Source: Cafeteria roenbergensis (Eukaryota > Sar > Bigyra > Bicosoecida > Cafeteriaceae). From it: a stretch of DNA of 64,000 nt. This document shows, in pieces, positions 1 through 50,395 of this stretch (positions within the stretch are counted from its first letter, which is position 1; each line of letters starts with the position of its first letter). The notes under the pieces are model-generated. The model did not search any database. It was given only the letters and a program-made list of their open reading frames with translations, and was not told the DNA's origin. The stretch covers positions 1-64,000 of the forward strand of contig VLTN01000026.1 of the NCBI GenBank assembly GCA_008330645.1, read 5' to 3'. Position numbers and translations under genes: made by a program.

Positions 1-401
1 AGCGCCTTGCCGGGCACCACGATGAAGGGCAGCGGCGAGGTGTCGAACTGGCGCGCGCTGGCGCGGGCGGGGCACGAGACGGCCGCCGCTTTGGGTGGCG
101 GCGTCCGCTGACGCATCGAAGGAGGTGAACAGGCTGCCGCCGCCGAGCAGCTGGGGACGGCAACGTCGGTAGCCATGGGAGAGGCGGAGGCGTCGAAGAA
201 GAAGAACCGCATCGCGCGGGGCCTCGGCGAGAGCTCGGCCTCTCCGGGGCAGCGGGGGCGCGAAGGCGCGCACGTCGATGAACTGCTCGGCGGAGCGCAG
301 CACCGACACGGACGAAGGGGCCACGAGGCTGGGGCGGCAATGCCCTTGCTTCACGATGGCCGACTGCGTGGTGGCGGAGCCGCCGTTGAAGTTGGTCACG
401 G
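1..401 (-). CDS. Probable continuation of the giant protein past an apparent stop
   Basis: The long frame ends at a TGA at 402-404, but the next minus-strand bases read GTLEVTVTNFNGGSATTQSA in another frame, which looks like natural beta-sandwich protein rather than random sequence. Restoring one G in the GGG run near 412-414 would join them, so a one-base consensus deletion is the simplest reading. Further left, protein-like stretches (SLFTSFDASADAA; ARQFDTSPLPFIVVPGKA) occur in different frames, implying more indels or an intron. This is inference from protein-like composition only. It is the host's own gene and is cut by the window edge. Confidence 0.5.
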
Positions 402-3400
402 TCACCTCCAGGGTCCCACGGTGTACCCGTCGGCGATGGCGGATGCGTTGGCGAGGGCGATGGTCGCACAGGACACGGACCGAGTCCCGGCATTGCGGGC
501 GTCGAGCACCGTCTTGAGGCCAGCGGCATGGACGGCCGCAGTGGACGTCTGGCGGGTCGCGGTGTTCACCACGGACACGATGCTCCACTGGCACGCGAGC
601 GGGCGGTTCCCCGCCGCCAGCCTCGCGACGGAGACGGTGAGCTTGTCGCAGCGGCCGATGGTGCGGGAGCCGGGGCCAATGTCAGCAACCGGCAAAATGC
701 CGTTCGCTGCAGCCGTCACGTTGACGACGCCCGCGGAGCTGAGGCGGGCGGCGCTCGATGTCTTGACCTTGCCGGGCACCAGCGCGATGGAGTGGCCGGG
801 CAGCACGGTGGGCGCGCGACCGAAGCGCACCTGCAGCTGGCGGCGCGACTGCCACTGGCACGAGCTGCCAGCGCCGAAGAGCGTGGCGACGGCGCTTCGG
901 CGGGCATCGACGGCCGGCACGTTGCACCGGCTGACAGAGCTGCCAGAGGCGGCCACCGGGCTGAGGAGCTCCGAGCAAGCGAAGGCGCCGCCCGCGCTGC
1001 CGCCAGCGTTGGTGTCGCGGTCGAAGGTGAGGGTCAGGGAGGTGAGCTCGTTGTCGAACTGGGCCGACGACAGCACCGGCGGTGCCGTGAAGGCGTCCTC
1101 GCGGATCGACACCTCCAGCGAAGGCACGGTGGCCATGCTGCCGTACATAGTGTCGTTGGAGACGATGGCAAGCTGAGCACTGACGCGGTGCTCGTCGCCA
1201 GCCTCGTCCAGGCGGTCATCACGAGCGCCCACAATCACTACCTGCGGCTCGAACCAGTTCTCGGCGGTGAAGGTGAGCTCTGCAATGAAGGATCCGTCGC
1301 CCCCCGTCACGGCTTGGGGGCCGGACGATTCCAGCTGCGCCTGAGACACGCCGCTCTGGCCGGAGCCCGCGGGGCCAGCGACGCACGCATCCGCGACCAC
1401 GGTTCCGGTGATGACCTGCATCACGCTCGGCACGCGCACGGTCACAGGGGCCACGGGCTCGGACGTGAGCGAGATGGCCACGGCGTCGGGGGTGCCGCCC
1501 TCCACGGCGACGAGGAAGGGCGCGCTGGCCTTGGGGTAGCTGAACACGTTGCACACGTCCCGCGGGCACGCGTTGATGCTGTTCTGGCAGACGGCGATGC
1601 ACGCCTCCGTGGTCCAGACGTCGGACGCCGGGTCGACGGCACGGATGAAGACGGACTGCTCGGCAGATCCAGTGCCGACAGAAATGGGCTCTTCGCGCTC
1701 AAGGAGCAGGCCGGCCTCGTCGTTGTCCATGATGCTCACTCGCAAGGCGGCGGTGAGCCCGTTGTACGCGGGGTCGGCCGACTCGCAAGCCAGGGTGACA
1801 TTGGCAGCGTGGGGGCGCGCCTCCGCGATATCGTCGTCCACGGCTGACACCTCGATGAGCATGACATCTTCCCACGAGCGCTCGTCGAAGGCCAGGACAT
1901 CGGGGAAGACAGTCAGCTGGTCAGCGGGAGCAGCCACCGAGCACAAGACCGCGGCGCGAGGCTTCGAGCTGAGCTCCACGAAGAAGGCTCCTTCGGCGTC
2001 CGACTCGCCGAACTCGGCCTCAGCCAGCATCATGGGCGTGCCCGGCGCAGCTTCCGAATTGGCGATGCGGGACACAAGCCCGATCACGTCATTGTCCGTC
2101 GCGGAGAAGGCGGTCTCTGCCTCCAAGCCGGTAACCAGGGCCTGGTAGCCGGCGTCGTTGCTCTGCTGCGCGTCGACCACGGCGCGCAGCCTGAACGCGA
2201 AGACGCCACCCACGGCGACGGAGTCGTCTGCGACTGAGATAGTGACAACGCGCGACACTCCAGCCACGCCGTCCGCCTCGGAGAAGGTGATCGTGGAGCC
2301 AGGGACGGACGAGAGGCCGTCGCGCGACCGCACCGCGATGGTCGGGTGCGGCAGCAGGCCAGAGACGCATTGGGTCGTTGCGCCAGTGGCAGAGGCGCAG
2401 TCGGTGGCGTCAAAGCAGGCGCTGGTGAAGTCAGCGGCCAGGCGGAACTCGGCCTGCGCATCAAACTCGCCTCCGGCAATCACGCCGTCGTCAACCAACG
2501 AGCAGTATCCAGTGGAGGCCTCGAGCTGCAGGGTCACGGAGCCGGCACCGGAGTTGGCACTGCCGATGACGAAGGGGGCCGCACCGATGGACACTGAGAA
2601 GCTGGCGGGCTCGCTGCCGCCCTCGGCGACCTGCTGGTCGCTTCCAGTGGCGCTGACGAGGGCGACTGACGGCATGTCATCGTCCTCGACTGCGATGCTG
2701 GGGCTGGGCAGGGTGAGCGAGGCAAGGAAGCCGCGGTCCGCAGTCTGCTGGGCGTTGACGGACATGGACAGGCGGCCGGTGTGCGTGCCCTGGGCGAACT
2801 TGTCGTCCTTGACGACGGCCGACACGTTCTGGGGCATGTTCCAGTTGGCGGCCGTGAAGGTCAGCTTTGCCGGAGAGGCGGTCACGGACGCGTCGCCGGC
2901 GACGTCGACCACCACGTTGCCTCGGGGCTTGGCCGAGAGAGTCACGCTGCCGAGCACGGCCGAGTGGCCAGGGGCGCTGGCGGACGCAGCGGCGCTCTCC
3001 TTGAGGGGCATAGGGGCGGGCGCCGCGGCCGCAAAGAGCACGGCCGCGACATCGGTGTCGCGCACGGTCGCGGCGATGCGCGGCAGGGAGCGAACGTTGC
3101 GGATGATGGAGCCGTCCGCAAGCTGGGTGGTGGCAGCGCGCGGGGTGGTGGACGCCACGCCGTCGAGGGCGTACGAGTCGTCCGTCGAGGTTGTGCGCAC
3201 GGCAATGGTGCGGGCGCGGTCCCCGAGCGCGGCGTCGCTGCCAGCGCCGGACACGGTCACGGACACCGCGGTGTTCCAGTCGGCCGGCTGGATGACCACG
3301 CTGGCCGGCGAGAAGCTGAGAGCGGCATCGGCCCCCGTGGCCTCCTGGGCACCCACCAGCTCGACGAGCGACACAGTCACAGCGGCGCCGGGCATGGAGC

Positions 3401-6400
3401 CGAGGCGCACAGAGAGGCTGGCCGTGGCCCCGGACGCGAGCTCGTCCACCACGACGCTGGAGGCGCTGTCAGCGGCAGCCACGAGCACCCCGGGGGCGTC
3501 CTCGAAGTCCTCCACGAGCACGGTGACCTCCATGGTGGACGCCGCGGCGCCCTCCGGGGTGAAGGCGTGCGAGACGGTCACCACGCGCAGGGCGAAGGCG
3601 CGGTCGTCGTTGGCGGCGGCAAACTGCACGGCGCGCGTGAGGGCTGCGGAGGAGAGCGCGAAGCTGGCGTCACCAGTCAGCACCAGGTTGGCATAGGGCG
3701 AGGCCAGGCCGACGCCGGAGCTGGGGGTGGCAGTGAGCGCAACCGAGCCGCCGACGTCGGAGGAGACGAGGCCCACCGTGTAGGAGCCGGCAGCGCCGCC
3801 CTCGGTCAGGCGGATAGTGGAAGCAGACGTCGTGAGGCCGGCGCTGATCACGCTGACGGTGATGCCGGTCGCCGAGGTGGACGGGCCGGCGGTGGAGCCA
3901 AGCCGGGCGGCGGACCCGACGGCAAACTCGGAAGCTGCCGAGGCCGTGACAAGGGCGGTGATGCCGCACGTGGCAGCGGTGGTGCCGCTGGGGGTGACGG
4001 TCACGACCTTGGCCGCAGCTGCGGGGCCGTCGGTGGTGGTGAAGGTCACGGTGGCGGGGCTGATCGACACGGCATCACAGCCAGCGTCGGAGCCCTTGGC
4101 AAGCGTCACAGTGACATCGCCGGTGGGCTTGGAGCCGGCCACAACGCTGAAGGAAAGAGAGCCGCCGACGGGGACGCTGACGGCGGGGGCGGCGAGGCTG
4201 CTGACCACGATCTCGGCTTCGTCGTCGTTCTCCACAGCCAGGTTGACAGCGGTCTGCGAGGTGGTCCACAGGTCGGACACGTCCACGTTGGCGCCGGAGC
4301 CAACTCCGCGGGCAGTTGCCGTGACCACAAGTGCCGCCACGTAGTCCCGCGCCACGTCGTCGTTGGCCACGGTGACCGTGAAGGTCTGCTCGGTCTGCCA
4401 GCTGTCCCGGTCGAACACGAGGCCGGCGGCGGGAAGGCTGTGGGACACGGTGTCGGTCTCGGTGTTGGAGGCAGTCAGCACCACCTCCACTCCAACCATG
4501 GGGCGGGCTGCGAGCCGCACGCCAACGACGACGGACGATCCCTCGGCGGCGACCACGGTGACCACTCCGGAGGCGGCGTCGACGAGCGTGGCAGCCTGGC
4601 CGCTCACCGCGCGGACCACTGGGGCGCTGGACTCCAGCTTGTCGACGTCGTCCACGCGAAGCGACGCGGACAGCTCCGGAAGGGAGTCGTACTCCGGATC
4701 CTGAGGGGCGGCCACGCTGGCAGCGATCTGGGCGGAACGAACCGCGCCGACGACGCCGTCGGACGTTGAAGTCGCCTCCACGAACACAGGAACGTCCCAG
4801 TTGTTGGGCGTGAAGGTGACGGAGTCGGGCGACAAGGCAATGCCGGACTCAGCGATGGCGACAGGATCGCCGCCCACCACGGACTCGGTGGCAGAGCGCA
4901 CGGCGAGGGACAAGGAGACCACGCCGCGAGGCATGGACGTGAGGCGCACGCTCAGCAGGCCGGGGATGGTCTCTGTCGCGACCAGCGAGCCCCCGGCAAG
5001 GATATTTCCAGCAACGGCCGCGGTCGCGCTGGCGAACGTATCTTCCACCGCAGCCGCGCTCAGGCCCGCAACATCGGAGTCGTCGCGCACGATTGCCGTG
5101 AAGCACTGTTGCCCGGTCGCCGCAGAATACGCTGCGGCTTTTGAGGCAAGGATGGAAACGCAGATGCGAGCTGAACCTTCGCCGGCCATCTGGTCGTCCT
5201 CGGCGCTGACGAGGACGCCCTGGGCGCCTGCATCGCCCGATGCGGTGAAAGAAAGGGAGGAGGTGGTAGGGGACACAGAGACGCCCGCCCCGCCGTCTGC
5301 GGCAAACGCCGAAACCACAGCGAAGATGAGCGCCGAGCCCGGGAAGGCAGCACCCATCGTGAGATTGAACGCCGTCGTGGTGCCCTCCCAGAGCGACGTG
5401 CTCAGAACGTCGCCTGGCATTGCCCCGTTGATCATTGGGACAGCGGAGTCGTCGTCGTAGACATCCACGGAGGAGGTCGCTGATGCGAAGAGTTCAAAGT
5501 CCTCCCCGGCAGTGGCCTCGGCGACAAGGATGACGTTGTCTCTGTCGGGCTGCGACAGCGCGTCGTCCGCAGCCTCGACGCGGACTGACTCGCCCGCCTG
5601 CCAGTTGTCTGCACTGAGCGTCACGGTGGAGGGCACCGCACGCACGCGAGAGCTGAGAGCCGCCAGAGTGACCGTGATGCCCTCCGCGCCCAGCGGCTGC
5701 GAGGCAAGCGCGACGAGGACCTCGGTGGCGGAGTCGGACGTGCCCTCCGTGAGGCTGGCAGCCACCGATCCCTCGGCGTCGGCTGAGGGCAGGGGTGAGC
5801 CGTCAATGCCCAGAAGCAGCACAGTGTTGCGGTCGTCGTCGTTTCGCTTCACCACGGCAGCAACCGTGCCCGCAGGGTCGTCAACGTAGCGGTCCGCGGT
5901 GGAGAGCTCTGGGTCGACGCTGAGCTGCACGCGCACCATCTCGAACGTGCCGGAAGGGTCTGAGCTTGAGAACTCCGACGTTCCTCGGCGAAGTGCCCTG
6001 GAGTCGTCGTCGGAGGAAATGGCAATCGCCTGTGGCACGTTCCAGTTGCCTGCGTTGAACATCGCGGCTCCTGTCGTCGACCCACCGGCGGCCGAGGCGT
6101 CTGCGCCAGCAATGGCCGCAAGTCGGGGGTTTCCGCCTGTGCTGAGGCGCACATGCACGCTCTGGCCGACCGGGGGCGCTGCCTGCAGCTTCACGAACAC
6201 CAGCGCGACTGCTGCCGAGCCGGATGCCCCCTCTGTCACCTCGTCGCCTGCGTCCGACGTGTATGCCGGCTGCTCGGCCACCTCCATGCCAGGGCGGAAG
6301 ACCTTGGCCGCTGCGGGGCCCGCAGAGGCCCCGATGTTGGATGCCGACTCAAAGGCTGCCAGCACCGCAAAGACGTCGTCGTCCACGAGCGAAAGAGGCT

Positions 6401-9400
6401 GTGCAAGCTGTGAGTTGGCCAGCGAAGCGTACTCGGGAGCGAGCGCACTCGGGTCTGCAGCGACAGTGACCTGGACGCTCGGCTCGTCCGCCTCGTCCAC
6501 GTCGTCGTTCAGGTTGGCAATGGGCACGTCGATGGACCGCTGCCCTGGCGCGAGAGCAACAGATACGGCAGGTGCGACGGTAGGCACCCCAGACAGGGAG
6601 CGGACGAAGATGGCGGCTGACGCCGAAAGCCGCAGCTGAATCGATGCCTGCGGCACTGACGGGGCCGTTGCCAGCGAGACCCGAATGAATCCGGCCGATG
6701 CATTCGCGTCCCCCTCGATCAGCAGCAGGCCGGCGTCCGTTGCCACAGGCGTTCGGTCGCTTGACAAAAGCTGCATCGTCACCGCTGCAACGTCATTGTC
6801 CGACACTGTCACAATGACGTCGGTCTGCGTCAGTGCGTCGCCTGTGAAGCGCGGATCGGCACTCTCGAGAGCGTGCACAACGGTCACGTCGAAGGAGGAG
6901 CCCATGTCGATGTCGTCGTCGCCGATGAGGACTGTCACGGAAACGCCGGCCTCCCAGTTGTCGGCGTCAAGCACGATGGAGGTGATCGAGTGGCCACTGG
7001 CATTCTGAAGCACCGCCTGGCCGGGGGGGAGAGCGACTCCAGAAGCCGCAAGCGTCACAGCTGGCACAACCACGACAGCATCCTCCGGAGCCGCAGACAG
7101 CCGCAGGGTGTACGTGGCTCCTGCCCCACCTTCATTGGCATTGGGGGTGGTAACGTTCGTAAGTATGCCGGCAAAGTCACTGTCGGTGCTGTTGCCGGCC
7201 GGCGGCTTCGTGGGGCAGTCATCGGCGTTGGCCTCGTCGGAGCAGTCGAGCACGTCGTTGTCCTTGATGCGAACCGCGATGCTGCTCACCACACCGGCCG
7301 GGAATGCCTGGCTCAGCTCCTCGCAGCTGTCTCCCGCTGCAATCACCAGCGTCAGCCCGGACATGTGCACCGGACCCTCAACCGCGTCGTCGTCCACCGC
7401 TGACACGCGGATCACGCCCACGTCGCCTGTCATTTCGGCCAGGTCCAGCACCGCCATGCCCGCCGCGTTGCCGGAGAGGGCCGCGTCCTCGGAGACCAGT
7501 CCGCCCGCCTCCAGCCGCAGCTGCATCCCGGGCACGCACTGCTCCTTGGCGGGGCTGCCCGCCGACGAGCACCCGCCGCACGACCCGAACACGAGGCTGT
7601 GCTCGCGGCCCGAGAACCCGGTGCTGCACGGCAGGTCGAAGCGGTCCACCCCATCGCATCGGCAGTGGCCGTCCGCCAGGAAGACGGACACGGTCGTGCC
7701 CGGTACTGTCCAGGCGGGATCGCCCGACGCGCACCGCGACGGGATGTCCTGCACGTTCACGAGCACCTCCGCCACCGGCGTGGTGGGCCCCGTCGCTCGT
7801 CTCCTCCACGGACGGCACGATGCCCGTGCCCGAGAACATCAGCGCGTTCGTGGGGCCGCTGTTCTCCATGGACTGCATCAGGATCACGTCGAGCGACGCG
7901 ACGACACCCTCGTACAGGGCGTCCTCCCCCTCGGATGCCCTCGCCGTGGCCACCAGGCGCAGCCCCTCCGTCGCCTGGGCAGGCGCCACGAAGCCCACGA
8001 CGACGGACTGCTTCCAGTCATCGCGGGGCACGAGCACGGTGACGGCGCTCCTCAGGAGCTCGCGGAGCGGCGACTCCTCCGGCACGCCATCCATGTCGAA
8101 GGCTTGCAGCAGCTCGTCGCTGGAGCCCGTGAAGAGCCGGGGCGCGTCCATCATAGCGGACGTCTCGCCGCTCGTGTCCATGGCCGCCACCTGCACGAAC
8201 AGCCCCGGCGCCGTTGGCGGCGACGACAGGGTCACGATCACCGGCACGGCCTGGCCGTAGGCGACGTCATGTCCGCTGGCCACGCCGCCCAGCGATAGCA
8301 CCAGGCTGGCCTTGGCACCGCTCGCCGCCTCCGAGAACCTGGCCGATCCCACACCGCCCTGGCCGGCAGCGAGCATGGCGTAGAAGGGGTCCGTGGTCCC
8401 GGCCGCGATGGCGTGCTCCACCGTGACGGAGAGCGGGGCGGTGCCGTCGTCCGACGGCTCGCCGACCACGCGGGCCGTGAGCGTCTGCACCGCCGACCAG
8501 TTGCCGGGGCCGAACCACACCTGCTCGGGAGCCACGTCCACTCGCAAGGCGCTGGTGCTGGACACGTCGACCTGCCCGGAGAGCAGCGTCACGCGGCCGA
8601 CCCCCACCACCACGGTGCCGGTGGGCTGCGACGCGAGCACCATGCCGTACGAGTAGGCATCGCCTCTGGCCACCACCGGGGAGCCCATGCCGATCACAGT
8701 CACGCCGCTGCGGTCGTCGTCCTCCACCGTCACGGGCAGCGCGTCGGCCACGAAGGCGGCCGGCCAGTCGGCCGCCAGCTTGCTGTCCGCCGCCAGCGGC
8801 GTCACCGGCTGGGAGCGGCCCGGCCGGCTGGCGACCACGGCGGCGCTGTAGTGCGGGTCGTCCGCGCGCAGCACCACCGCACCGAGCGCCGCGTGCACCA
8901 CGTGCGCGGGCGACGCCATGGGCCCGGCCGAGTCGATGCCGTCCGACCTCACCGTGACGAAGAACACCGCGTCGGGCACGTAGAGGAAGTCGGACGGCGA
9001 GGCGGGGCGCTTGTCCACCGGCTGCGTCAGCTCGGTGATGGACATGCTCCAGTTGCCCGGGCTCACCACGGCCGTGGACGGAGTCACGTCGAGCACGTCG
9101 GCCACGGCGGACAGGCACACGCCCGCCACCGCCTTGCCCGACGCATCCGTGAGGCCGTCGCAGTCGTCGTCGCGCGCGCAGAGCCTGAGGTCGCTACTGC
9201 CGGGCCTCCCGTCCGCCGCGCGGCACACCCGGATGTCACTGGTCAGCGACACCGTGACCGGCGTCCTGGGGCGGGAGAGCAGCTTCACACCCACGGCGAT
9301 GGTGGTGGTGCCGTTGCCTTCCTCCCGCAGCACCGGGGCGGGGCCGGGCGGCGCCAGGAACGCGGCCGGGAGCGATGCCGGCTGGAAGGCGCGCGCCGCA

Positions 9401-12400
9401 ACGCCGGCCAGGTCGTCCTCCTCCACCACCACCGCGACCGAGCGACGGAAGCCCGCGGCCGCCAGCGCGTCGAACCGCGCGTCGCACGGGACCTGCTCGA
9501 AGTGGCCCGAGGCGCACGGGGCCAGGGCGATGGTCAGCGCCTCGTCCAGCACGTCCACGGGGCGCGGGGTCGCCTTGCCGTCGTCCGCGGACTGCTCGAT
9601 GTGGCGCGAGTCGACATCGTCGTCCACGACCGCCACGCAGACCAGGCCGTTCACGGCAGACACGCCGGCCGCCGCCGCGGCGACGGGGTTGCCCACCGGG
9701 ACAACCTGCCACGCCTGGCCGCCGGCCGTGGCCATCTCCAGCGCGAGGCGGTCGGCCGTCGCCGGGCCGCGAGTGGGCTGGTACAGCACCGTGCCCAGCT
9801 GCTCCCACGTCGAGAGCACGCGCAGGCCGCGGCGGTGGGCGGCCTCCGACAGCGACACGTTGAAGAACACCACAGACACGCCGTCGAACGACGTCGGGAG
9901 GATCCGCACACACAGGCGGCCAGCGGCGCGCTCCCGCGGTTCACGCGCGACTCGGACGGCGGCTCGTCGTCGTTCAGCCGTGTGCCGTCGTTGTTGAGCT
10001 GCAGGTCGGCGATGTTCGGGAGCGTGCCCTCGCGCGCCAGCAAGCGCAGGTCCTCGCCCGTCACGATCTTGGCGTCGGGCGGGGAGAGCGCCCCGGCGTT
10101 GAAGCCCAGCACCGGCTCCTGCGCCATGTCGGTCGGGTAGTACATGTGCGAGGAGCCCGGGGCGGGGATGTCGTACTCGAAGGGCAGCACGCTGAACGCG
10201 ACAGCCGGGGCGGGGAGCGGTCCTGAGGAGTTTCCGCCGGGAAGGCAGCCCGACCCGTCGGGCGCAGGCACGCAGCCGGTGCCGTTGCCGGCCGGCGGCT
10301 TCGTGGGGCAGTCATCGGCGTTGGCCTCGTCGGAGCAGTCGAGCACGTCGTTGTCCTTGATGCGAACCGCGATGCTGCTCACCACACCGGCCGGGAATGC
10401 CTGGCTCAGCTCCTCGCAGCTGTCTCCCGCTGCGATCACCAGCGTCAGCCCGGACACGTGCACCGGACCCTCAACCGCGTCGTCGTCCACCGCCGACACG
10501 CGGATCACGCCCACGTCGCCTGTCATTTCGGCCAGGTCCAGCACCGCCATGCCCGCCGTGTTGCCAGACAGCGCCGCGTCCTCGGAGACCAGTCCGCCCG
10601 CCTCCAGCCGCAGCTGCATCCCGGGCACGCAATGCTCCTTGGCGGGGCTGCCCGCCGACGAGCACCCGCCGCACGACCCGAACACGAGGCTGTGCTCGCG
10701 GCCCGAGAACCCGGTGCTGCACGGCAGGTCGAAGCGGTCCACCCCATCGCATCGGCAGTGGCCGTCCGCCAGGAAGACGGACACGGTCGTGCCCGGTACT
10801 GTCCAGGCGGGATCGCCCGACGCGCACCGCGACGGGATGTCCTGCACGTTCACGAGCACCTCCGCCACCGGCGTGGTGGCCCCGTCGCTCGTCTCCTCCA
10901 CGGACGGCACGATGCCCGTGCCCGAGAACATCAGCGCGTTCGTGGGGCCGCTGTTCTCCATGGACTGCATCAGGCTCACGTCGAGCGACGCGACGACACC
11001 CTCGTACAGGGCGTCCTCCCCCTCGGATGCCCTCGCCGTGGCCACCAGGCGCAGCCCCTCCGTCGCCTGGGCAGGCGCCACGAAGCCCACGACGACGGAC
11101 TGCTTCCAGTCATCGCGGGGCACGAGCACGGTGACGGCGCTCTTCAGGAGCTCGCGGAGCGGCGACTCCTCCGGCACGCCATCCATGTCGAAGGCTTGCA
11201 GCAGCTCGTCGCTGGAGCCCGTGAAGAGCCGGGGCGCGTCCATCATAGCGGACGTCTCGCCGCTCGTGTCCATGGCCGCCACCTGCACGAACAGCCCCGG
11301 CGCCGTTGGCGGCGACGACAGGGTCACGATCACCGGCACGGCCTGGCCGTAGGCGACGTCATGTCCGCTGGCCACGCCGCCCAGCGATAGCACCAGGCTG
11401 GCCTTGGCACCGCTCGCCGCCTCCGAGAACCTGGCCGATCCCACACCGCCCTGGCCGGCAGCGAGCATGGCGTAGAAGGGGTCCGTGGTCCCGGCCGCGA
11501 TGGCGTGCTCCACCGTGACGGAGAGCGGGGCGGTGCCGTCGTCCGACGGCTCGCCGACCACGCGGGCCGTGAGCGTCTGCACCGCCGACCAGTTGCCGGG
11601 GCCGAACCACACCTGCTCGGGAGCCACGTCCACTCGCAAGGCGCTGGTGCTGGACACGTCGACCTGCCCGGAGAGCAGCGTCACGCGGCCGACCCCCACC
11701 ACCACGGTGCCGGTGGGCTGCGACGCGAGCACCATGCCGTACGAGTAGGCATCGCCTCTGGCCACCACCGGGGAGCCCATGCCGATCACAGTCACGCCGC
11801 TGCGGTCGTCGTCCTCCACCGTCACGGGCAGCGCGTCGGCCACGAAGGCGGCCGGCCAGTCGGCCGCCAGCTTGCTGTCCGCCGCCAGCGGCGTCACCGG
11901 CTGGGAGCGGCCCGGCCGGCTGGCGACCACGGCGGCGCTGTAGTGCGGGTCGTCCGCGCGCAGCACCACCGCACCGAGCGCCGCGTGCACCACGTGCGCG
12001 GGCGACGACGCCATGGGCCCGGCCGAGTCGATGCCGTCCGACCTCACCGTGACGAAGAACACCGCGTCGGGCACGTAGAGGAAGTCGGACGGCGAGGCGG
12101 GGCGCTTGTCCACCGGCTGCGTCAGCTCGGTGATGGACATGCTCCAGTTGCCCGGGCTCACCACGGCCGTGGACGGAGTCACGTCGAGCACGTCGGCCAC
12201 GGCGGACAGGCACACGCCCGCCACCGCCTTGCCCGACGCATCCGTGAGGCCGTCGCAGTCGTCGTCGCGCGCGCAGAGCCTGAGGTCGCTACTGCCGGGC
12301 CTCCCGTCCGCCGCGCGGCACACCCGGATGTCACTGGTCAGCGACACCGTGACCGGCGTCCTGGGGCGGGAGAGCAGCTTCACACCCACGGCGATGGTGG

Positions 12401-15400
12401 TGGTGCCGTTGCCTTCCTCCCGCAGCACCGGGGCGGGGCCGGGCGGCGCCAGGAACGCGGCCGGGAGCGATGCCGGCTGGAAGGCGCGCGCCGCAACGCC
12501 GGCCAGGTCGTCCTCCTCCACCACCACCGCGACCGAGCGACGGAAGCCCGCGGCCGCCAGCGCGTCGAACCGCGCGTCGCACGGGACCTGCTCGAAGTGG
12601 CCCGAGGCGCACGGGGCCAGGGCGATGGTCAGCGCCTCGTCCAGCACGTCCACGGGGCGCGGGGTCGCCTTGCCGTCGTCCGCGGACTGCTCGATGTGGC
12701 GCGAGTCGACATCGTCGTCCACGACCGCCACGCAGACCAGGCCGTTCACGGCAGACACGCCGGCCGCCGCCGCGGCGACGGGGTTGCCCACCGGGACAAC
12801 CTGCCACGCCTGGCCGCCGGCCGTGGCCATCTCCAGCGCGAGGCGGTCGGCCGTCGCCGGGCCGCGAGTGGGCTGGTACAGCACCGTGCCCAGCTGCTCC
12901 CACGTCGAGAGCACGCGCAGGCCGCGGCGGTGGGCGGCCTCCGACAGCGACACGTTGAAGAACACCACAGACACGCCGTCGAACGACGTCGGGAGGATCC
13001 GCACACAGGCGGCCAGCGGCGCGCTCCCGCGGTTCACGCGCGACTCGGACGGCGGCTCGTCGTCGTTCAGCCGTGTGCCGTCGTTGTTGAGCTGCAGGTC
13101 GGCGATGTTCGGGAGCGTGCCCTCGCGCGCCAGCAAGCGCAGGTCCTCGCCCGTCACGATCTTGGCGTCGGGCGGGGAGAGCGCCCCGGCGTTGAAGCCC
13201 AGCACCGGCTCCTGCGCCATGTCGGTCGGGTAGTACATGTGCGAGGAGCCCGGGGCGGGGATGTCGTACTCGAAGGGCAGCACGCTGAACGCGACAGCCG
13301 GGGCGGGGAGCGGTCCTGAGGAGTTTCCGCCGGGAAGGCAGCCCGACCCGTCGGGCGCAGGCACGCAGCCGGTGCCGTTGCCGGCCGGCGGCTTCGTGGG
13401 GCAGTCATCGGCGTTGGCCTCGTCGGAGCAGTCGAGCACGTCGTTGTCCTTGATGCGAACCGCGATGCTGCTCACCACACCGGCCGGGAATGCCTGGCTC
13501 AGCTCCTCGCAGCTGTCTCCCGCTTCGACCACCAGCGTCAGCCCGGACATGTGCACCGGACCCTCAACCGCGTCGTCGTCCACCGCCGACACGCGGATCA
13601 CGCCCACGTCGCCTGTCATTTCGGCCAGGTCCAGCACCGCCATGCCCGCCGTGTTGCCAGACAGCGCCGCGTCCTCGGAGACCAGTCCGCCCGCCTCCAG
13701 CCGCAGCTGCATCCCGGGCACGCAATGCTCCTTGGCGGGGCTGCCCGCCGACGAGCACCCGCCGCACGACCCGAACACGAGGCTGTGCTCGCGGCCCGAG
13801 AACCCGGTGCTGCACGGCAGGTCGAAGCGGTCCACCCCATCGCATCGGCAGTGGCCGTCCGCCAGGAAGACGGACACGGTCGTGCCCGGTACTGTCCAGG
13901 CGGGATCGCCCGACGCGCACCCCGACGGGATGTCCTGCACGTTCACGAGCACCTCCGCCACCGGCGTGGTGGCCCCGTCGCTCGTCTCCTCCACGGACGG
14001 CACGATGCCCGTGCCCGAGAACATCAGCGCGTTCGTGGGGCCGCTGTTCTCCATGGACTGCATCAGGCTCACGTCGAGCGACGCGACGACACCCTCGTAC
14101 AGGGCGTCCTCCCCCTCGGATGCCCTCGCCGTGGGCCACCAGGCGCAGCCCCGCCGTCGCCTGGGCAGGCGCCACGAAGCCCACGACGACGGACTGCTTC
14201 CAGTCATCGCGGGGCACGAGCACGGTGACGGCGCTCCTCAGGAGCTCGCGGAGCGGCGACTCCTCCGGCACGCCATCCATGTCGAAGGCTTGCAGCAGCT
14301 CGTCGCTGGAGCCCGTGAAGAGCCGGGGCGCGTCCATCATAGCGGACGTCTCGCCGCTCGTGTCTATGGCCGCCACCTGCACGTACAGCCCCGGCGCCGT
14401 TGGCGGCGACGACAGGGTCACGATCACCGGCACGGCCTGGCCGTAGGCGACGTCATGTCCGCTGGCCACGCCGCCCAGCGATAGCACCAGGCTGGCCTTG
14501 GCTCCGCTCGCCGCCTCCGAGAACCTGGCCGATCCCACACCGCCCTGGCCGGCAGCGAGCATGGCGTAGAAGGGGTCCGTGGTCCCGGCCGCGATGGCGT
14601 GCTCCACCGTGACGGAGAGCGGGGCGGTGCCGTCGTCCGACGGCTCGCCGACCACGCGGGCCGTGAGCGTCTGCACCGCCGACCAGTTGCCGGGGCCGAA
14701 CCACACCTGCTCGGGAGCCACGTCCACTCGCAAGGCGCTGGTGCTGGACACGTCGACCTGCCCGGAGAGCAGCGTCACGCGGCCGACCCCCACCACCACG
14801 GTGCCGGTGGGCTGCGACGCGAGCACCATGCCGTACGAGTAGGCATCGCCTCTGGCCACCACCGGGGAGCCCATGCCGATCACAGTCACGCCGCTGCGGT
14901 CGTCGTCCTCCACCGTCACGGGCAGCGCGTCGGCCACGAAGGCGGCCGGCCAGTCGGCCGCCAGCTTGCTGTCCGCCGCCAGCGGCGTCACCGGCTGGGA
15001 GCGGCCCGGCCGGCTGGCGACCACGGCGGCGCTGTAGTGCGGGTCGTCCGCGCGCAGCACCACCGCACCGAGCGCCGCGTGCACCACGTGCGCGGGCGAC
15101 GCCATGGGCCCGGCCGAGTCGATGCCGTCCGACCTCACCGTGACGAAGAACACCGCGTCGGGCACGTAGAGGAAGTCGGACGGCGAGGCGGGGCGCTTGT
15201 CCACCGGCTGCGTCAGCTCGGTGATGGACATGCTCCAGTTGCCCGGGCTCACCACGGCCGTGGACGGAGTCACGTCGAGCACGTCGGCCACGGCGGACAG
15301 GCACACGCCCGCCACCGCCTTGCCCGACGCATCCGTGAGGCCGTCGCAGTCGTCGTCGCGCGCGCAGAGCCTGAAGTCGCTACTGCCGGGCCTCCCGTCC

Positions 15401-18400
15401 GCCGCGCGGCACACCCGGATGTCACTGGTCAGCGACACCGTGACCGGCGTCCTGGGGCGGGAGAGCAGCTTCACACCCACGGCGATGGTGGTGGTGCCGT
15501 TGCCTTCCTCCCGCAGCACCGGGGCGGGGCCGGGCGGCGCCAGGAACGCGGCCGGGAGCGATGCCGGCTGGAAGGCGCGCGCCGCAACGCCGGCCAGGTC
15601 GTCCTCCTCCACCACCACCGCGACCGAGCGACGGAAGCCCGCGGCCGCCAGCGCGTCGAACCGCGCGTCGCACGGGACCTGCTCGAAGTGGCCCGAGGCG
15701 CACGGGGCCAGGGCGATGGTCAGCGCCTCGTCCAGCACGTCCACGGGGCGCGGGGTCGCCTTGCCGTCGTCCGCGGACTGCTCGATGTGGCGCGAGTCGA
15801 CATCGTCGTCCACGACCGCCACGCAGACCAGGCCGTTCACGGCAGACACGCCGGCCGCCGCCGCGGCGACGGGGTTGCCCACCGGGACAACCTGCCACGC
15901 CTGGCCGCCGGCCGTGGCCATCTCCAGCGCGAGGCGGTCGGCCGTCGCCGGGCCGCGAGTGAGCTGGTACAGCACCGTGCCCAGCTGCTCCCACGTCGAG
16001 AGCACGCGCAGGCCGCGGCGGTGGGCGGCCTCCGACAGCGACACGTTGAAGAACACCACAGACACGCCGTCGAACGACGTCGGGAGGATCCGCACACAGG
16101 CGGCCAGCGGCGCGCTCCCGCGGTTCACGCGCGACTCGGACGGCGGCTCGTCGTCGTTCAGCCGTGTGCCGTCGTTGTTGAGCTGCAGGTCGGCGATGTT
16201 CGGGAGCGTGCCCTCGCGCGCCAGCAAGCGCAGGTCCTCGCCCGTCACGATCTTGGCGTCGGGCGGGGAGAGCGCCCCGGCGTTGAAGCCCAGCACCGGC
16301 TCCTGCGCCATGTCGGTCGGGTAGTACATGTGCGAGGAGCCCGGGGCGGGGATGTCGTACTCGAAGGGCAGCACGCTGAACGCGACAGCCGGGGCGGGGA
16401 GCGGTCCTGAGGAGTTTCCGCCGGGAAGGCAGCCCGACCCGTCGGGCGCAGGCACGCAGCCGGTGCCGTTGCCGGCCGGCGGCTTCGTGGGGCAGTCATC
16501 GGCGTTGGCCTCGTCGGAGCAGTCGAGCACGTCGTTGTCCTTGATGCGAACCGCGATGCTGCTCACCACACCGGCCGGGAATGCCTGGCTCAGCTCCTCG
16601 CAGCTGTCTCCCGCTGCAATCACCAGCGTCAGCCCGGACATGTGCACCGGACCCTCAACCGCGTCGTCGTCCACCGCCGACACGCGGATCACGCCCACGT
16701 CGCCCGTCATTTCGGCCAGGTCCAGCACCGCCATGCCCGCCGCGTTGCCGGAGAGGGCCGCGTCCTCGGAGACCAGTCCGCCCGCCTCCAGCCGCAGCTG
16801 CATCCCGGGCACGCACTGCTCCTTGGCGGGGCTGCCCGCCGACGAGCACCCGCCGCACGACCCGAACACGAGGCTGTGCTCGCGGCCCGAGAACCCGGTG
16901 CTGCACGGCAGGTCGAAGCGGTCCACCCCATCGCATCGGCAGTGGCCGTCCGCCAGGAAGACGGACACGGTCGTGCCCGGTACTGTCCAGGCGGGATCGC
17001 CCGACGCGCACCCCGACGGGATGTCCTGCACGTTCACGAGCACCTCCGCCACCGGCGTGGTGGCCCCGTCGCTCGTCTCCTCCACGGACGGCACGATGCC
17101 CGTGCCCGAGAACATCAGCGCGTTCGTGGGGCCGCTGTTCTCCATGGACTGCATCAGGCTCACGTCGAGCGACGCGACGACACCCTCGTACAGGGCGTCC
17201 TCCCCCTCGGATGCCCTCGCCGTGGCCACCAGGCGCAGCCCCTCCGTCGCCTGGGCAGGCGCCACGAAGCCCACGACGACGGACTGCTTCCAGTCATCGC
17301 GGGGCACGAGCACGGTGACGGCGCTCCTCAGGAGCTCGCGGAGCGGCGACTCCTCCGGCACGCCATCCATGTCGAAGGCTTGCAGCAGCTCGTCGCTGGA
17401 GCCCGTGAAGAGCCGGGGCGCGTCCATCATAGCGGACGTCTCGCCGCTCGTGTCTATGGCCGCCACCTGCACGTACAGCCCCGGCGCCGTTGGCGGCGAC
17501 GACAGGGTCACGATCACCGGCACGGCCTGGCCGTAGGCGACGTCATGTCCGCTGGCCACGCCGCCCAGCGATAGCACCAGGCTGGCCTTGGCTCCGCTCG
17601 CCGCCTCCGAGAACCTGGCCGATCCCACACCGCCCTGGCCGGCAGCGAGCATGGCGTAGAAGGGGTCCGTGGTCCCGGCCGCGATGGCGTGCTCCACCGT
17701 GACGGAGAGCGGGGCGGTGCCGTCGTCCGACGGCTCGCCGACCACGCGGGCCGTGAGCGTCTGCACCGCCGACCAGTTGCCGGGGCCGAACCACACCTGC
17801 TCGGGAGCCACGTCCACTCGCAAGGCGCTGGTGCTGGACACGTCGACCTGCCCGGAGAGCAGCGTCACGCGGCCGACCCCCACCACCACGGTGCCGGTGG
17901 GCTGCGACGCGAGCACCATGCCGTACGAGTAGGCATCGCCTCTGGCCACCACCGGGGAGCCCATGCCGATCACAGTCACGCCGCTGCGGTCGTCGTCCTC
18001 CACCATCACGGGCAGCGCGTCGGCCACGAAGGCGGCCGGCCAGTCGGCCGCCAGCTTGCTGTCCGCCGCCAGCGGCGTCACCGGCTGGGAGCGGCCCGGC
18101 CGGCTGGCGACCACGGCGGCGCTGTAGTGCGGGTCGTGCGCGCGCAGCACCACCGCACCGAGCGCCGCGTGCACCACGTGCGCGGGCGACGCCATGGGCC
18201 CGGCCGAGTCGATGCCGTCCGACCTCACCGTGACGAAGAACACCGCGTCGGGCACGTAGAGGAAGTCGGACGGCGAGGCGGGGCGCTTGTCCACCGGCTG
18301 CGTCAGCTCGGTGATGGACATGCTCCAGTTGCCCGGGCTCACCACGGCCGTGGACGGAGTCACGTCGAGCACGTCGGCCACGGCGGACAGGCACACGCCC

Positions 18401-19904
18401 GCCACCGCCTTGCCCGACGCATCCGTGAGGCCGTCGCAGTCGTCGTCGCGCGCGCAGAGCCTGAAGTCGCTACTGCCGGGCCTCCCGTCCGCCGCGCGGC
18501 ACACCCGGATGTCACTGGTCAGCGACACCGTGACCGGCGTCCTGGGGCGGGAGAGCAGCTTCACACCCACGGCGATGGTGGTGGTGCCGTTGCCTTCCTC
18601 CCGCAGCACCGGGGCGGGGCCGGGCGGCGCCAGGAACGCGGCCGGGAGCGATGCCGGCTGGAAGGCGCGCGCCGCAACGCCGGCCAGGTCGTCCTCCTCC
18701 ACCACCACCCGCGACCGAGCGACGGAAGCCCGCGGCCGCCAGCGCGTCGAACCGCGCGTCGCACGGGACCTGCTCGAAGTGGCCCGAGGCGCACGGGGCC
18801 AGGGCGATGGTCAGCGCCTCGTCCAGCACGTCCACGGGGCGCGGGGTCGCCTTGCCGTCGTCCGCGGACTGCTCGATGTGGCGCGAGTCGACATCGTCGT
18901 CCACGACCGCCACGCAGACCAGGCCGTTCACGGCAGACACGCCAGCCGCCGCCGCGGCGACGGGGTTGCCCACCGGGACAACCTGCCACGCCTGGCCGCC
19001 GGCCGTGGCCATCTCCAGCGCGAGGCGGTCGGCCGTCGCCGGGCCGCGAGTGGGCTGGTACAGCACCGTGCCCAGCTGCTCCCACGTCGAGAGCACGCGC
19101 AGGCCGCGGCGGTGGGCGGCCTCCGACAGCGACACGTTGAAGAACACCACAGACACGCCGTCGAACGACGTCGGGAGGATCCGCACACAGGCGGCCAGCG
19201 GCGCGCTCCCGCGGTTCACGCGCGACTCGGACGGCGGCTCGTCGTCGTTCAGCCGTGTGCCGTCGTTGTTGAGCTGCAGGTCGGCGATGTTCGGGAGCGT
19301 GCCCTCGCGCGCCAGCAAGCGCAGGTCCTCGCCCGTCACGATCTTGGCGTCGGGCGGGGAGAGCGCCCCGGCGTTGAAGCCCAGCACCGGCTCCTGCGCC
19401 ATGTCGATCGGGTAGTACATGTGCGAGGAGCCCGGGGCGGGGATGTCGTACTCGAAGGGCAGCACGCTGAACGCGACAGCCGGGGCGGGGAGCGGTCCTG
19501 AGGAGTTTCCGCCGGGAAGGCAGCCCGACCCGTCGGGCGCAGGCACGCAGCCGGTGCCGTTGCCGGCCGGCGGCGGCTGCAAGCACATGGTCTCATTGTC
19601 CGTCGACGAGCAGTTTGGCCCGCTGGTTGACGGTGGCTCCAGAGTTGAACAGCTTGTTCCGTTGACAAGAGAATTGTTCGCTGGGGTTTCGCATTCACTT
19701 CCTGCCGCTCCCGGGTCGGCTGCTGTCGCGTTGTCGTGCTCGGCAAGCGTCCTGCCCACGCCCGCTCCTGCAAGGTGTTGGCCTTGGGTCTGGCTGCTCA
19801 CGAGGCCAATGGCCAGAGCAGCCACTACCAGCGCTGAGGTCTGCGCGGCACGAGAGGCTCGCAAGGACGGAGCCAACGAATGCAACCGTGACTGCCGCGG
19901 CCAT
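1..19904 (-). CDS. Giant Calx-beta-like repeat surface protein, partial at left edge
   Basis: A single minus-strand gene encoding about 6,490 residues within the window and continuing off the left edge. Order from the N-terminus: a hydrophobic leader (around 19800-19904), a short Cys/Asn/Ser-rich linker, four near-identical 1,030-residue units, then about 2,450 diverged residues with some 14 strands of the type V-x-V-x-D-D/N-D, spaced roughly 100-150 residues apart, the signature of Calx-beta and related beta-sandwich repeats. The distal end has a conserved protist pattern (PPVLSSAQFDNE, then CQW, then LPGHSIALVPG) met near REJ/PKD-type modules. Role inferred: secreted or membrane-anchored adhesion/surface protein; ligand unknown. 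The frame is interrupted by small indels near 18708, 14133, 9909, 7785 and about 412, each in a short base run, probably consensus errors. No in-frame ATG begins the leader; ATG 19904 starts a signal-like peptide in a neighbouring frame, so the 5' end is unresolved. Confidence 0.8.
7201..19568 (-). repeat. Four-copy tandem array, 3,090-bp coding unit
   Basis: Four head-to-tail units: 16478-19568, 13387-16477, 10294-13386 and 7201-10293 (N- to C-terminal order). Base length is 3,090 bp, exactly 1,030 codons. Spacings of 3,091, 3,091, 3,093 and 3,093 are fully explained by one extra base near 18708, one near 14133, one extra codon near 12004 (a Ser, unit 3 only), two extra bases near 9909 and one near 7785. 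Copies differ by only a handful of substitutions. Each unit carries several acidic beta-strand motifs (VAVVDDDVD, VVVEEDDLAG, VTVEDDDRSG, VRIKDNDV), a Cys-rich stretch and the junction GNGTGCVPAPDG. The junction sequence ccggccggcgg marks every boundary, including both outer edges, and may be the crossover point for expansion. Confidence 0.95.
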
Positions 19905-37172: not shown

Positions 37173-40100
37173 TCAGCCCGCCCGGCTGCGCCGCGGCAGC
37201 CGATGGCAACGGCCCCCCCCCGCACCCTTGTTGAACCAGGTGCACTGCGCATATGACACGACGTCGTCCGCACCTGCGGCGGCCACAGCCTCCGCCAGCA
37301 CCGCGTCGTCTTCCACGAGCGACGCAGGGCCAGTGTACGGCGGCCAGTCCAGCTCGCGAGCCTCCTCCGCGGCAGCGGGCTCATCGTCGTCCCCGCCCTC
37401 GCCGTCGTCGGTCTCGCAGCCGTCCTCGCACTTGACCGTGTCGTCGCTGTCCTCTTCTCCGCTGCGGCGGGCGCTGGTACGGCGCGGCTCCCGCCTTGAA
37501 GACTTGCATGGCCCTGACGCGGAGGTTTTTGCCTTGCGCTCCGACAGCATGGCGAAGGTGCTGCAGCTCCCGGCGGGCTCCTCGGTCGGCTCGTCGAAGA
37601 GCCTGCGCAGCTCGTCCGCCGAGAAGGAGCGCGCGCCTCCGGTGTCGCCGTCCACGATGGCGGACGACACCTCCTCCTTGAGTAGCTGCCTTTGCAGCAC
37701 CTTTTCCTCGAGGGTCCCGGCCAAGGAAAAGCGGTAGATGGCGCAGCGCTTGGGCTGGCCGTCGCGCCACACGCGCGCCATGGCCTGCCGGTCCGTCGCG
37801 GGGTTCCAGTCCACATCAAAGAGCACCAGCCGGTTCGCGCCCACCAGGTTGAGGCCGACGCCGCCGGCCTTGGAGGAAAGCAGCAGCACGCGCGATGGGT
37901 GGGAGCCCCTGTTGAACGCCGACACGAGCGTGGCGCGCCGCTCTGACGCCGTGGACCCGTCCAGCCTGAGGAAGGGCACGCCGCGGCATGTGCACAGCCC
38001 ACTGATCACGTCCAGCGTGGCGGTGTAGTTGGACACGACCACCAGCTTGTCGGGTGCCTCGAGGCTCTGCCCCTTGCGAGGCGTCTGCACGGACGAGAGC
38101 ATGAGCTCGTCGAGGAGCCGCAGCTTGCCCGATCCGGATGCGATGGCGTCCCCTGCCCTGCGCAGCGCGCCCGGCAGCGCGTCGCGGCCGGAGCGGGACT
38201 CCGCAAAGGGCAGCTTGGAAGCCGCCGCCACGGCGCGGCCGTCCGCGGAGAGCATGCCGAGCTCCTGAAGCGCGCTGCGGAGAGGGTCGGGATTCGCCTG
38301 GAAGGCGTCGTCGTACGCCTCGAGCAGGCTGGTGCCCTGGCGCGGGCCATGCAGCGAGGAAGGCCGCCCTCGCTTCGGCGCCCTGGTCGTGCCAGACGCG
38401 CCTGAAGAGCTCGCTGCCGTGTCGCCGCCACCTGCGTCGTCATCGTCGTCGTCGTCTTCCTCGCCGCTGCCAAGCGATGCCAGGTCGTCACTGTCGTCAT
38501 CGAAGTCGACGTCCTCGTCCCCGCTGAGGCTGCCGCGCTCCGACCCGCTCATGCCCGTCGCCGTGGACGCCACAGACGGGGAGCGCTTCGCCGCAGGGGG
38601 GCGCCGCGCGCTTGGCTTGCCGCCTGCCCCTCCCTGGACTCCCATCTGCCTGTGCATGGCTGCCACGACTGCGGAGGCGGTGGCCCGGAGAGTTGCGGAG
38701 TCGATCAGCGCTGCCGCCCGCTGGTGGCCCTCCGCCGCTGCGGCGCGCACTGCGTCCCCCCACAACAGCGCAGGGCTGTTGCAGAGCTTGCGGAGCAGGC
38801 CGACCGCCGTCAGCGCCTCGGCAGCGGCCGCCCCGCCCGCCGAGCCTCGGGCACTCGCCGCGTACCGTGCCGACGTCTTGGCGAGGACTGCGCGGTAGAG
38901 CCGCAACTGCAACGCGGTGGGACGGCAGAACACGCAAGACTCCGTCTTGGAGGGCAGGTAGCGGTCGAGGATGCGCTGGGTGCGTCGCAGGATGAACTGG
39001 GTGGACACGCGCGAGAGCTCCTTGGACCGCTCCGCGCCGATGGCCTGCTCCTCCGGGGAGGCCGACTTGTCGCGGCCACGCTGGATGGGCGTCTGGAACA
39101 CGCGGCGGAAGACGTTCAGCGGTCCGAGCACGTCCGGGTTGACAAAGGAGCAGCAGGCGTAGAACTCGTCCAGGCGATTCTGGATGGGCGTGCCGGTGAG
39201 AATGACGCGCCTGCGGCAGGGGCAGGCCGCCAGGGCGGCGATGGTCTGGTTCCCGTCACTGTTCTTCAGCCTGTGGCCCTCGTCGCAAACGAGCAGCCCC
39301 ACGTCGCAGCCGCGTTTGGCCGCGCCCGACTTGGTGGACGCGCCCGACCCTGCTGCGGCCGCCCCTCCGTTGATGAGGCCGGCGTACCTGCGGAACTGCT
39401 CGTAGCTGACGATAAGGACGGGCGAGACGCTGCTGGAGGAGAGGCAAAAGTCTCTCACCGCCTGCTCGGCCTCCTTCCCGCCTTTGGTCACGGCGATGGG
39501 CCGGCACTTCTGGTCGCCAAGCCACTTGCGGAACTCGCGACGCCAGTTGGCCACGAGAGAGCTCGGACACACAACGACGGCCTTGGTGGCGAGGGGTGCT
39601 CCTCCCAAAGACTGCTTGAGCGCCGTGTAGATGAGCGTGATGGCCTGCAGCGTCTTCCCCAGGCCCATGGCGTCGGCAAGCACTGCGCCTGCGCCCGAGA
39701 AGGGCCGCATTCCGGCCACGCACTCCCAGAGAAACCTGATCCCCGCGACCTGGTGCGGGCGAAGCGCCGACGCGAGGGCCGGGTCAACTACCACGGGAAC
39801 CTGCGGGCGGCCGTCGGCGCCCACCACGCCGCAGGCCTGCTGCAGCGCCAGCCGCGACGGGCCGCTCCCGCAAGCGCCTCCGCCTCTGACCCCAGAGCCA
39901 GCAGAGGAGGCCGCCGACGAGGCGCCAGCCGAGCGCTCCCACCGCTGACGCGCCGCCTCCTCGTTCCTGGGCGCCCCCTCTGGCCACTGGAGCACCACGG
40001 CGCCGGGGGCCAGCGGGTCGAAGCGCGCCCGAGCGCTGCGCGGCACCGCGCCAGCCTCCTCCGGCGCACCGCCTCCCCCCAAGGAGGCGCCAGCCGTTCG

Positions 40101-40997
40101 TCGGGCGAGGGACTTGCTCATCTTTGCGGACACGCGAGCGACGCTGGCAGCGAGAGAACGAGCCGCCGTAGCGGGAGCGCGCACGCCCCCGACGACGCCA
40201 GCGTCGCTCCCCGACGAGGCAGCGATGAAGATCCTTCCAGACTCGTATTCGGTCGCTGCAATTTCGTTCACGACCTCGAGGTCGTACGACCGCACGGACA
40301 GCGTGCCGCCAACCTTCATCATCGTCTGCTTGGTGTGCTCCGTGGCCACATCCTTGCCCTCCATGGTCTGCAGGATCGCCTTGCGGGAGGGAACCAGCAC
40401 GAGGATGCCGTCGTCGTACGTCTTGTGCTTCTTGCGCGAGTACTTGCAGTACATGACCGAGTAATATTGCCTCGCACCGTCGTTGGGCGCCGCTGGGGTC
40501 GCATTTGCGCGGGGTCCCGCTGCCGAAAGTCGCGCGATTGCCGCGGCGGCACCAACAGCGGATGCTGCGGGCTTGGGCGCCGAAAACGACGACGCCGCAC
40601 GCGGAACTTTGAATGCCGGCCGCCGTTTCAACCCGAGCGGCCTGCGGGGAAGCGCAGCCTGCGGCGGCTCTCCCGCCCCCGGTACTCCCGGCACTGACGC
40701 GCTCGGGCGGATGCCGGGGGTAGCATCTGCCGCCGGAGCCCCAGCAGCCGGGGGCGGCGCCGAGTCCGCAGGGCCAAGCGGCGCGGCCGTCGCGGCGGGC
40801 GCCCCCGCGGCTGGGCGAGTGCACGCGCTCGCCGCGGCTGGCGCCGAGGGGCCGGGGGTACTGCCGATCGGGCGGGGCGCGCGGAAGGGCTTGCCCTTGA
40901 GGGCGCCGCGGCGCATCGCGCAAGCCGCCGGGCAAGTGCTCCTGCCGCGCGGGCCCGCCGCCAAATGCTTGCTCGGCGCAAACATCGGCGCGATCAT
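37173..40997 (-). CDS. RAD54B: RAD54B-like SNF2 recombination translocase
   Basis: Intronless, 1,274 residues from ATG 40997. Order: a disordered Ala/Pro N-terminus (about 175 residues); a DUF2439-like domain (YYSVMYCKYSRKKHKTYDDG, then MEGKDVATEH) that marks RAD54B rather than RAD54; then the SNF2 ATPase with motif I GLGKTLQAI, Walker B CDEGHRLKN and ILTGTPIQNRLDEFY; then the helicase C half with LLSSKAGGVGLNL and motif VI ARVWRDGQ. A long acidic insert (SDDLASLGSGEEDDDDDDD) lies between the lobes. RAD54B remodels RAD51-DNA filaments and chromatin in homologous recombination in the nucleus. The residue before the Met of motif I is Ala (LADAMGLGKT) where most relatives have Glu. It is larger than human RAD54B (910) because of the low-complexity inserts. 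Confidence 0.94.
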   Translation of the reverse strand: MIAPMFAPSKHLAAGPRGRSTCPAACAMRRGALKGKPFRAPRPIGSTPGPSAPAAASACTRPAAGAPAATAAPLGPADSAPPPAAGAPAADATPGIRPSASVPGVPGAGEPPQAALPRRPLGLKRRPAFKVPRAASSFSAPKPAASAVGAAAAIARLSAAGPRANATPAAPNDGARQYYSVMYCKYSRKKHKTYDDGILVLVPSRKAILQTMEGKDVATEHTKQTMMKVGGTLSVRSYDLEVVNEIAATEYESGRIFIAASSGSDAGVVGGVRAPATAARSLAASVARVSAKMSKSLARRTAGASLGGGGAPEEAGAVPRSARARFDPLAPGAVVLQWPEGAPRNEEAARQRWERSAGASSAASSAGSGVRGGGACGSGPSRLALQQACGVVGADGRPQVPVVVDPALASALRPHQVAGIRFLWECVAGMRPFSGAGAVLADAMGLGKTLQAITLIYTALKQSLGGAPLATKAVVVCPSSLVANWRREFRKWLGDQKCRPIAVTKGGKEAEQAVRDFCLSSSSVSPVLIVSYEQFRRYAGLINGGAAAAGSGASTKSGAAKRGCDVGLLVCDEGHRLKNSDGNQTIAALAACPCRRRVILTGTPIQNRLDEFYACCSFVNPDVLGPLNVFRRVFQTPIQRGRDKSASPEEQAIGAERSKELSRVSTQFILRRTQRILDRYLPSKTESCVFCRPTALQLRLYRAVLAKTSARYAASARGSAGGAAAAEALTAVGLLRKLCNSPALLWGDAVRAAAAEGHQRAAALIDSATLRATASAVVAAMHRQMGVQGGAGGKPSARRPPAAKRSPSVASTATGMSGSERGSLSGDEDVDFDDDSDDLASLGSGEEDDDDDDDAGGGDTAASSSGASGTTRAPKRGRPSSLHGPRQGTSLLEAYDDAFQANPDPLRSALQELGMLSADGRAVAAASKLPFAESRSGRDALPGALRRAGDAIASGSGKLRLLDELMLSSVQTPRKGQSLEAPDKLVVVSNYTATLDVISGLCTCRGVPFLRLDGSTASERRATLVSAFNRGSHPSRVLLLSSKAGGVGLNLVGANRLVLFDVDWNPATDRQAMARVWRDGQPKRCAIYRFSLAGTLEEKVLQRQLLKEEVSSAIVDGDTGGARSFSADELRRLFDEPTEEPAGSCSTFAMLSERKAKTSASGPCKSSRREPRRTSARRSGEEDSDDTVKCEDGCETDDGEGGDDDEPAAAEEARELDWPPYTGPASLVEDDAVLAEAVAAAGADDVVSYAQCTWFNKGAGGGRCHRLPRRSRAG

Positions 40998-41110
40998 TCG
41001 GCAGAGCCCTGGTTCAACATCAAGGGGCGGGGCGGAAACAAAGCCACGTGGTGCAAGCGCCGTCCGGCAACAGCACTCCACCCCCCCCCTCCACCAGGAG
41101 GTAGGCCAAC
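40998..41110. promoter_or_regulatory. 113-base bidirectional promoter region
   Basis: Only 113 bases separate the ATG of RAD54B (minus) from that of the PDI-like gene (plus). Both 5' UTRs and both core promoters must fit here. It holds a C9 run (41081-41089) and no obvious TATA box. Confidence 0.55.
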
Positions 41111-47097: not shown

Positions 47098-47291
47098 GCG
47101 AGCGGCGCGCTCGCCGGGGCGCCTTTGCTCCGCTGCCAGGGACTCTTCCGACGGCGCGCGCCAGCGCGGTGCCGCAGCCGAAACAGTTGGGCGGGGGCGT
47201 GGGTGGGGGGAATGCAGCGCCGAGGGGGCTCGGAGTGCCTGTTGACCCGCGGCGCTTGCCGAACCGGTTCGATATAGGTGGTTCCACAACA
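47098..47291. promoter_or_regulatory. Divergent promoter region, RING / RMND1-like
   Basis: 194 bases between the proposed start codons of two divergent genes. No TATA box or named motif is visible. Confidence 0.4.

Positions 47292-50357: not shown

Positions 50358-50395
<38 letters not shown>

Follow-up and report, generated by a model that had tools for sequence, protein, structure and literature searches.

In a GC-rich eukaryote, probably a protist, a giant modular gene composed for the most part of diverged Ig-like beta-sandwich repeats has recently been extended, by recombination, through extra copies of a block of about 1,030 residues. This reading, to which a probability of about 0.6 is given, comes from the analysis of a window of 64,000 nucleotides of Cafeteria roenbergensis (contig VLTN01000026.1 of assembly GCA_008330645.1, positions 1 to 64,000). 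The block amplification in the giant gene is probably real and recent, and it is of a kind known from nebulin. The exact copy number and the reading frame of the array are not secure in the given sequence.

Tandem array and its units

When the window was compared with itself, four head-to-tail units were found on the minus strand at 7184-19574, with a consensus length of 3,090 bp and a 23-bp tail (Table 1). Thus, the four near-identical tandem units of the original prediction, which had placed them at 7201-19568, are indeed present. They are 99.29-99.47% identical to one another, as given by the three off-diagonal matches of the comparison, and at E 1e-5 the window was without any self-match besides these three. 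Exact repeats in the window reach 1,002 bp, against 35 bp once the array is removed and 16-18 bp in three mononucleotide shuffles. An origin of the array by chance is therefore excluded.

The start-to-start spacing of the units ranges from 3090 to 3095, and the length of 3,090 bp is the value left after setting aside the insertions private to single units. The units had been described as exactly 1,030 codons long and in frame. This is true of the consensus, which is a multiple of three, but as written the units measure 3093, 3093, 3091 and 3091 bp, three of the four carry frame-changing insertions and the frame switches four times. Unit 2 has 1,031 codons, owing to its in-frame insertion, and the array as a whole is split over five open-frame pieces of the minus strand. 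The view of the unit as a multi-domain block, on the other hand, holds good, as several domains are present in each unit and three of its repeats are recognised by profile.

Table 1. Features of the giant gene, in positions of the window
Feature	Position	Strand	Remarks
Hydrophobic, signal-peptide-like stretch near the N-terminus	19793..19849	-	hydropathy only, score 1.70
Tail past unit 4	19552..19574	-	23 bp; identical at 22 of 23 positions to 7184-7206, the start of unit 1
Unit 4 (first in protein order)	16461..19551	-	3091 bp; frame changed by one private insertion near 18.7 kb
Unit 3	13370..16460	-	3091 bp; frame changed by one private insertion near 14.1 kb
Unit 2	10277..13369	-	3093 bp; the sole unit open from end to end; in-frame 3-base insertion
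Unit 1 (last in protein order)	7184..10276	-	3093 bp; frame changed by two private insertions, near 9.9 and 7.8 kb
Counterpart of the tail (23 bp) at the opposite end of the array	7184..7206	-	
Unique region, one open frame	405..7183	-	14 diverged repeats by the profile made here
Coding-like sequence running to the window edge	1..416	-	weak scores; further apparent frame changes

Diverged repeats of the unique region

Next to the array, 405-7184 forms 2,260 unbroken codons. The 2,450 remaining residues suggested earlier exceed this length; the figure fits a 2,457-codon open frame at 402-7775, part of which lies in unit 1. Starting from a single repeat of the unique region, a profile was built that recognised 14 repeats in this region, all with E below 1e-10, and three in the unit, with E 2e-5 or better. 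These values are optimistic, since the profile was built from the very sequences that it scored. Five more stretches in the unit and three more in the unique region lie below the profile threshold. In the unique region, the repeat starts are 110-194 residues apart, and the mean column identity among 17 single repeats is 20%. Set against the 11-18 substitutions per about 3,090 bp that separate the units, this divergence supports the earlier proposal of a recent expansion on an older scaffold.

History of the array

The units differ at 25 substituted sites, 14 of which are private to single units and may include errors, while 11 split the units two against two. The latter fall into two incompatible groupings. 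At unit positions 158-356, six of the 11 sites group units 1 and 4 against units 2 and 3; at positions 553-2010, the other five group units 1 and 2 against units 3 and 4. Full separation of the two groupings has a chance of about 0.004, an optimistic value since it assumes independent sites in linear order and neighbouring sites may be linked. The variable sites are also crowded: the first 356 bases of the unit hold 12 of the 25 (binomial p 7e-6, with the boundary picked after the sites had been viewed), and 10 lie inside 200 bp (simulated p 0.0003). The crowded patch corresponds to window positions 7341-7539 and the equivalent place in the other units (unit positions 158-356). It could have arisen by conversion from a copy or allele that had diverged.

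Conflicting groupings in separate stretches, along with the direct repeat of 22/23 bp at both ends of the array, point to unequal crossing-over or conversion. It is proposed that the array probably began with a duplication in which two short direct repeats of a linker were joined, the tail at 19552-19574 being the probable seed. Later unequal crossing-over or conversion between units would have led to four copies and shuffled their variants. Such a process would account for the mosaic groupings, as crossover between misaligned units yields patterns of this kind.

Frame breaks

The frame-changing insertions are of one or two bases, with two in unit 1, one each in units 3 and 4 and none in unit 2. 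Each of the four adds bases that the other three units lack and extends a short base or dinucleotide run. A codon-usage track, which depends on unit 2 and the unique region because it was partly trained on them, switches between minus-strand frames near 18.71, 14.12, 9.94 and 7.79 kb and is thereafter unbroken to 417, with zero frame changes over the 6.8 kb adjoining the array (417-7183). Several apparent switches with low scores appear again at 1-416, which is possibly an error-rich end or contains unrecognised introns. As these lie outside the array, errors or decay are not limited to the repeats. For the changes within the array, introns were considered and ruled out, since the changes coincide with the unit-private insertions of one or two bases and unit 2 is fully open.

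It is known from the Polypolish paper (PMC8812927) that short reads align to an error-free copy, so that errors in repeats persist. In a PacBio/Illumina assembly of Cafeteria burkhardae, conserved genes in multi-copy elements appeared split; none of the Sanger assemblies confirmed that splitting, though not all genes were re-sequenced (PMC8547959). By analogy, the frame breaks seen here are most likely residual long-read indels that short-read polishing missed inside the repeats, and assembly error is taken to be a more likely source than decay.

Eight of the 25 substituted sites (32%) are synonymous and 17 are not, against 27-30% synonymous expected at random; no coding constraint is therefore visible on the copies. 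New repeat copies are in general reported to be under strongly relaxed and positive selection (PMC5120217), and the synonymous share thus leaves the choice between error and decay undecided. Claims about frame within near-identical repeats of an assembly call for independent sequence.

Identity of the repeats

The repeats had been labelled Calx-beta-like. Support for this label was weak or absent. Pfam, at E up to 10, found no family in unit 2 or in two pieces of the unique region, and NCBIfam gave no match for long pieces of the unit and the unique region. Among the 17 single stretches, one of which lies below the profile threshold, none was called Calx-beta (PF03160) by Pfam; two stray matches to other families were at chance level. 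PDB sequence searches gave no match below E 0.39.

Structure models of two repeats were also made. For the Calx-beta question, both models rest on two alignments: one of the 14 unique-region repeats and three unit stretches, which includes the sub-threshold stretch at 10950-11405 and omits one accepted unit stretch (residues 326-413), and one of 16 of those 17 repeats, with 2076-2444 left out. The modelled repeat of the unique region is all-beta, with a mean pLDDT of 75.9. Among the 50 PDB fold matches listed for it, an MSP-like domain stands first and most of the following ones are PapD-like chaperones; the list also includes axoneme central-apparatus chains and, at rank 39, a HYDIN domain. 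These matches are weak, the best E being 4e-4 and the TM by query length lying at 0.41-0.69, and 2dpk, the NCX Calx-beta calcium sensor, is absent from these 50. In a library of viral models, the same model resembles portions of phage tail and giant-virus proteins.

The modelled repeat of the unit is likewise all-beta (mean pLDDT 72.6), and its search against PDB folds returned nothing at E 0.001 or better. Its top match is 9ifr, a domain of a Gram-negative fibrillar adhesin, which is weak (E 1.4e-3, TM 0.35/0.42). For this model, 2dpk comes 19th (E 0.021), and its TM of 0.45/0.53 is the highest among the 50 matches listed. Calx-beta is thus represented at rank 19 in one of the two fold searches. 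Taken together, the results point to an Ig-like sandwich but to no particular family. Of acidic motifs that could bear on calcium binding, DDD/DND number five in unit 2 and ten in the unique region. A by-eye impression of a REJ/polycystin-like C-terminus was dropped, as Pfam on two pieces gave two chance-level matches to other families.

Relatives of the whole unit were not found in plasmids, nor in viral contigs in a search that reaches close relatives only; a search of genome contigs with the same reach gave nine pattern matches, none of which was confirmed. The part of the unique region at 2901-7184 has no relatives in plasmids or phages. The part at 405-2900, for which plasmids were searched, gave one match, in which one repeat is 34.2% identical to a Spirosoma plasmid protein. 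That plasmid stretch is not called Calx-beta by Pfam either, and a Calx-beta search of the plasmid record gave no match, which is uninformative because none was obtained in 14 control genomes. Literature on this gene was absent among the matches listed, in a scope that left subscription papers mostly outside.

Location of the protein

The gene product had been taken for a surface protein. The present measurements lend this little or no support: hydropathy maxima of 2.05 within the unit and 1.85 within the unique region exceed the 1.70 of the single hydrophobic stretch near the N-terminus, and the unique region has no excess of N-glycosylation sequons, with nine against a shuffled mean of 10.5. 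In the unit, there are five sequons against a shuffled mean of 2.5. The C-terminus of the protein was not found inside the window. A chain of sandwiches with DDD/DND motifs, cysteines (20 of them in unit 2) and a hydrophobic stretch near the N-terminus would nevertheless suit a long rod that is secreted or stands on the surface, and the protein is probably such a rod, though support for this is weak. Each block would then lengthen the rod.

Alternative explanations

It is possible, though doubtful, that the repeat is real and its number of four is a product of the assembly, for example of two alleles with fewer units joined head to tail. Over part of their length, the units do fall into allele-like groups (units 1 and 2 against units 3 and 4 at 553-2010), and Cafeteria contigs were rebuilt as individual alleles owing to high heterozygosity (PMC6972860). 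Yet the grouping flips at 158-356, and the farthest pairs are units 1 and 3 and units 2 and 4, with 18 differences each, which simple joining does not predict without further recombination. Moreover, four distinct versions in an organism assumed to be diploid still require at least two units on one allele. An array that is real in a gene that is decaying, with frame breaks that exist in the cell and a product that ends within the first block, is considered unlikely. Such decay would agree with the four frame changes, with the lack of clear purifying selection between units and with the possible further changes at 1-416. Against it, the codon-usage signal persists in the shifted frames across the array (on a track that took part of its training from unit 2 and the unique region), every break belongs to the error type expected of long reads, namely insertions in short runs, and the 2,260 codons adjoining the array are uninterrupted.

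The protein could also be an internal flagellar or cytoskeletal one, similar to HYDIN and built of MSP/PapD-like (ASH-type) sandwiches, instead of a surface protein. One of the two PDB fold searches is led by an MSP-like domain and lists PapD-like, axoneme and HYDIN matches, but these are the weak matches described above, the MSP/ASH family is absent in the Pfam search, and the cysteines of unit 2 and the DDD/DND motifs, in our judgement, fit a protein outside the cell better. This alternative is regarded as highly improbable. The amplification of a block in a giant gene of beta-sandwich repeats remains the preferred reading.

Genomic context

The window holds genes for a kinesin, a Rab-GAP TBC protein, SPRTN, an SNF2 protein with a ZGRF1-like domain, a CLC channel and SerRS, which marks it as eukaryotic. 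No tRNA and no match to Rfam were found in it. Its GC content is 62-77% in 2-kb steps; Cafeteria has 70-71% GC (PMC6972860). The SNF2 helicase frame (37176-41480, minus strand) bears the ZGRF1-like domain, assigned by Pfam, at its N-terminus. On the plus strand, a 1,476-codon open frame at 47091-51518 has acidic and GGC simple repeats and, at its end, a DUF155/RMND1-like domain. The best motor-domain stretch of the kinesin frame (58896-62288, plus strand) is C-terminal (residues 902-1123 of 1131) and is preceded by short tandem repeats.

Comparison with known systems

The triplicate region of nebulin (human NEB exons 82-105) is an 8-exon block of two super-repeats in three head-to-tail copies, and its copy number varies (PMC7109182). 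As in nebulin, several modules or domains have been duplicated as one tandem block inside a giant modular gene, here as four units of 3.09 kb. The NEB blocks are interrupted by introns and form part of a muscle filament protein, whereas the present unit requires no intron and encodes beta-sandwich repeats. Copies of a nebulin-type block would be expected to keep one frame; the array as written changes frame four times.

The sponge aggregation factor is a Calx-beta repeat protein. Published Calx-beta arrays range from 3 to 41 units, each about 114 residues long (PMC2805694). Proteins of this type, such as FREM2, share with the present gene the runs of beta-sandwich repeats, whose starts lie 110-194 residues apart here, but they differ in that Pfam finds Calx-beta in none of the 17 stretches and the fold match to 2dpk stands no higher than rank 19 (E 0.021). 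Bacterial fibrillar or RTX-type adhesins are long extracellular rods of repeated Ig-like domains, in which the number of domains sets the reach. The weak top fold match of the unit repeat, 9ifr, is a domain of a protein of this kind; the source here is eukaryotic, and the amplified unit consists of several domains, not one.

Implications

If long reads confirm the array, it would be a clean and recent case in which a block of several domains was amplified within a giant protist gene and the traces of crossover can still be read. A further proposal, which we hold to be rather improbable, is that recombination between near-identical blocks lets the protist adjust how long a giant surface rod is, by about 1,030 residues at a time, with a hot exchange patch at one end of the block and with strains or alleles that differ in reach. 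Should the rod reading be true, more blocks would mean more reach.
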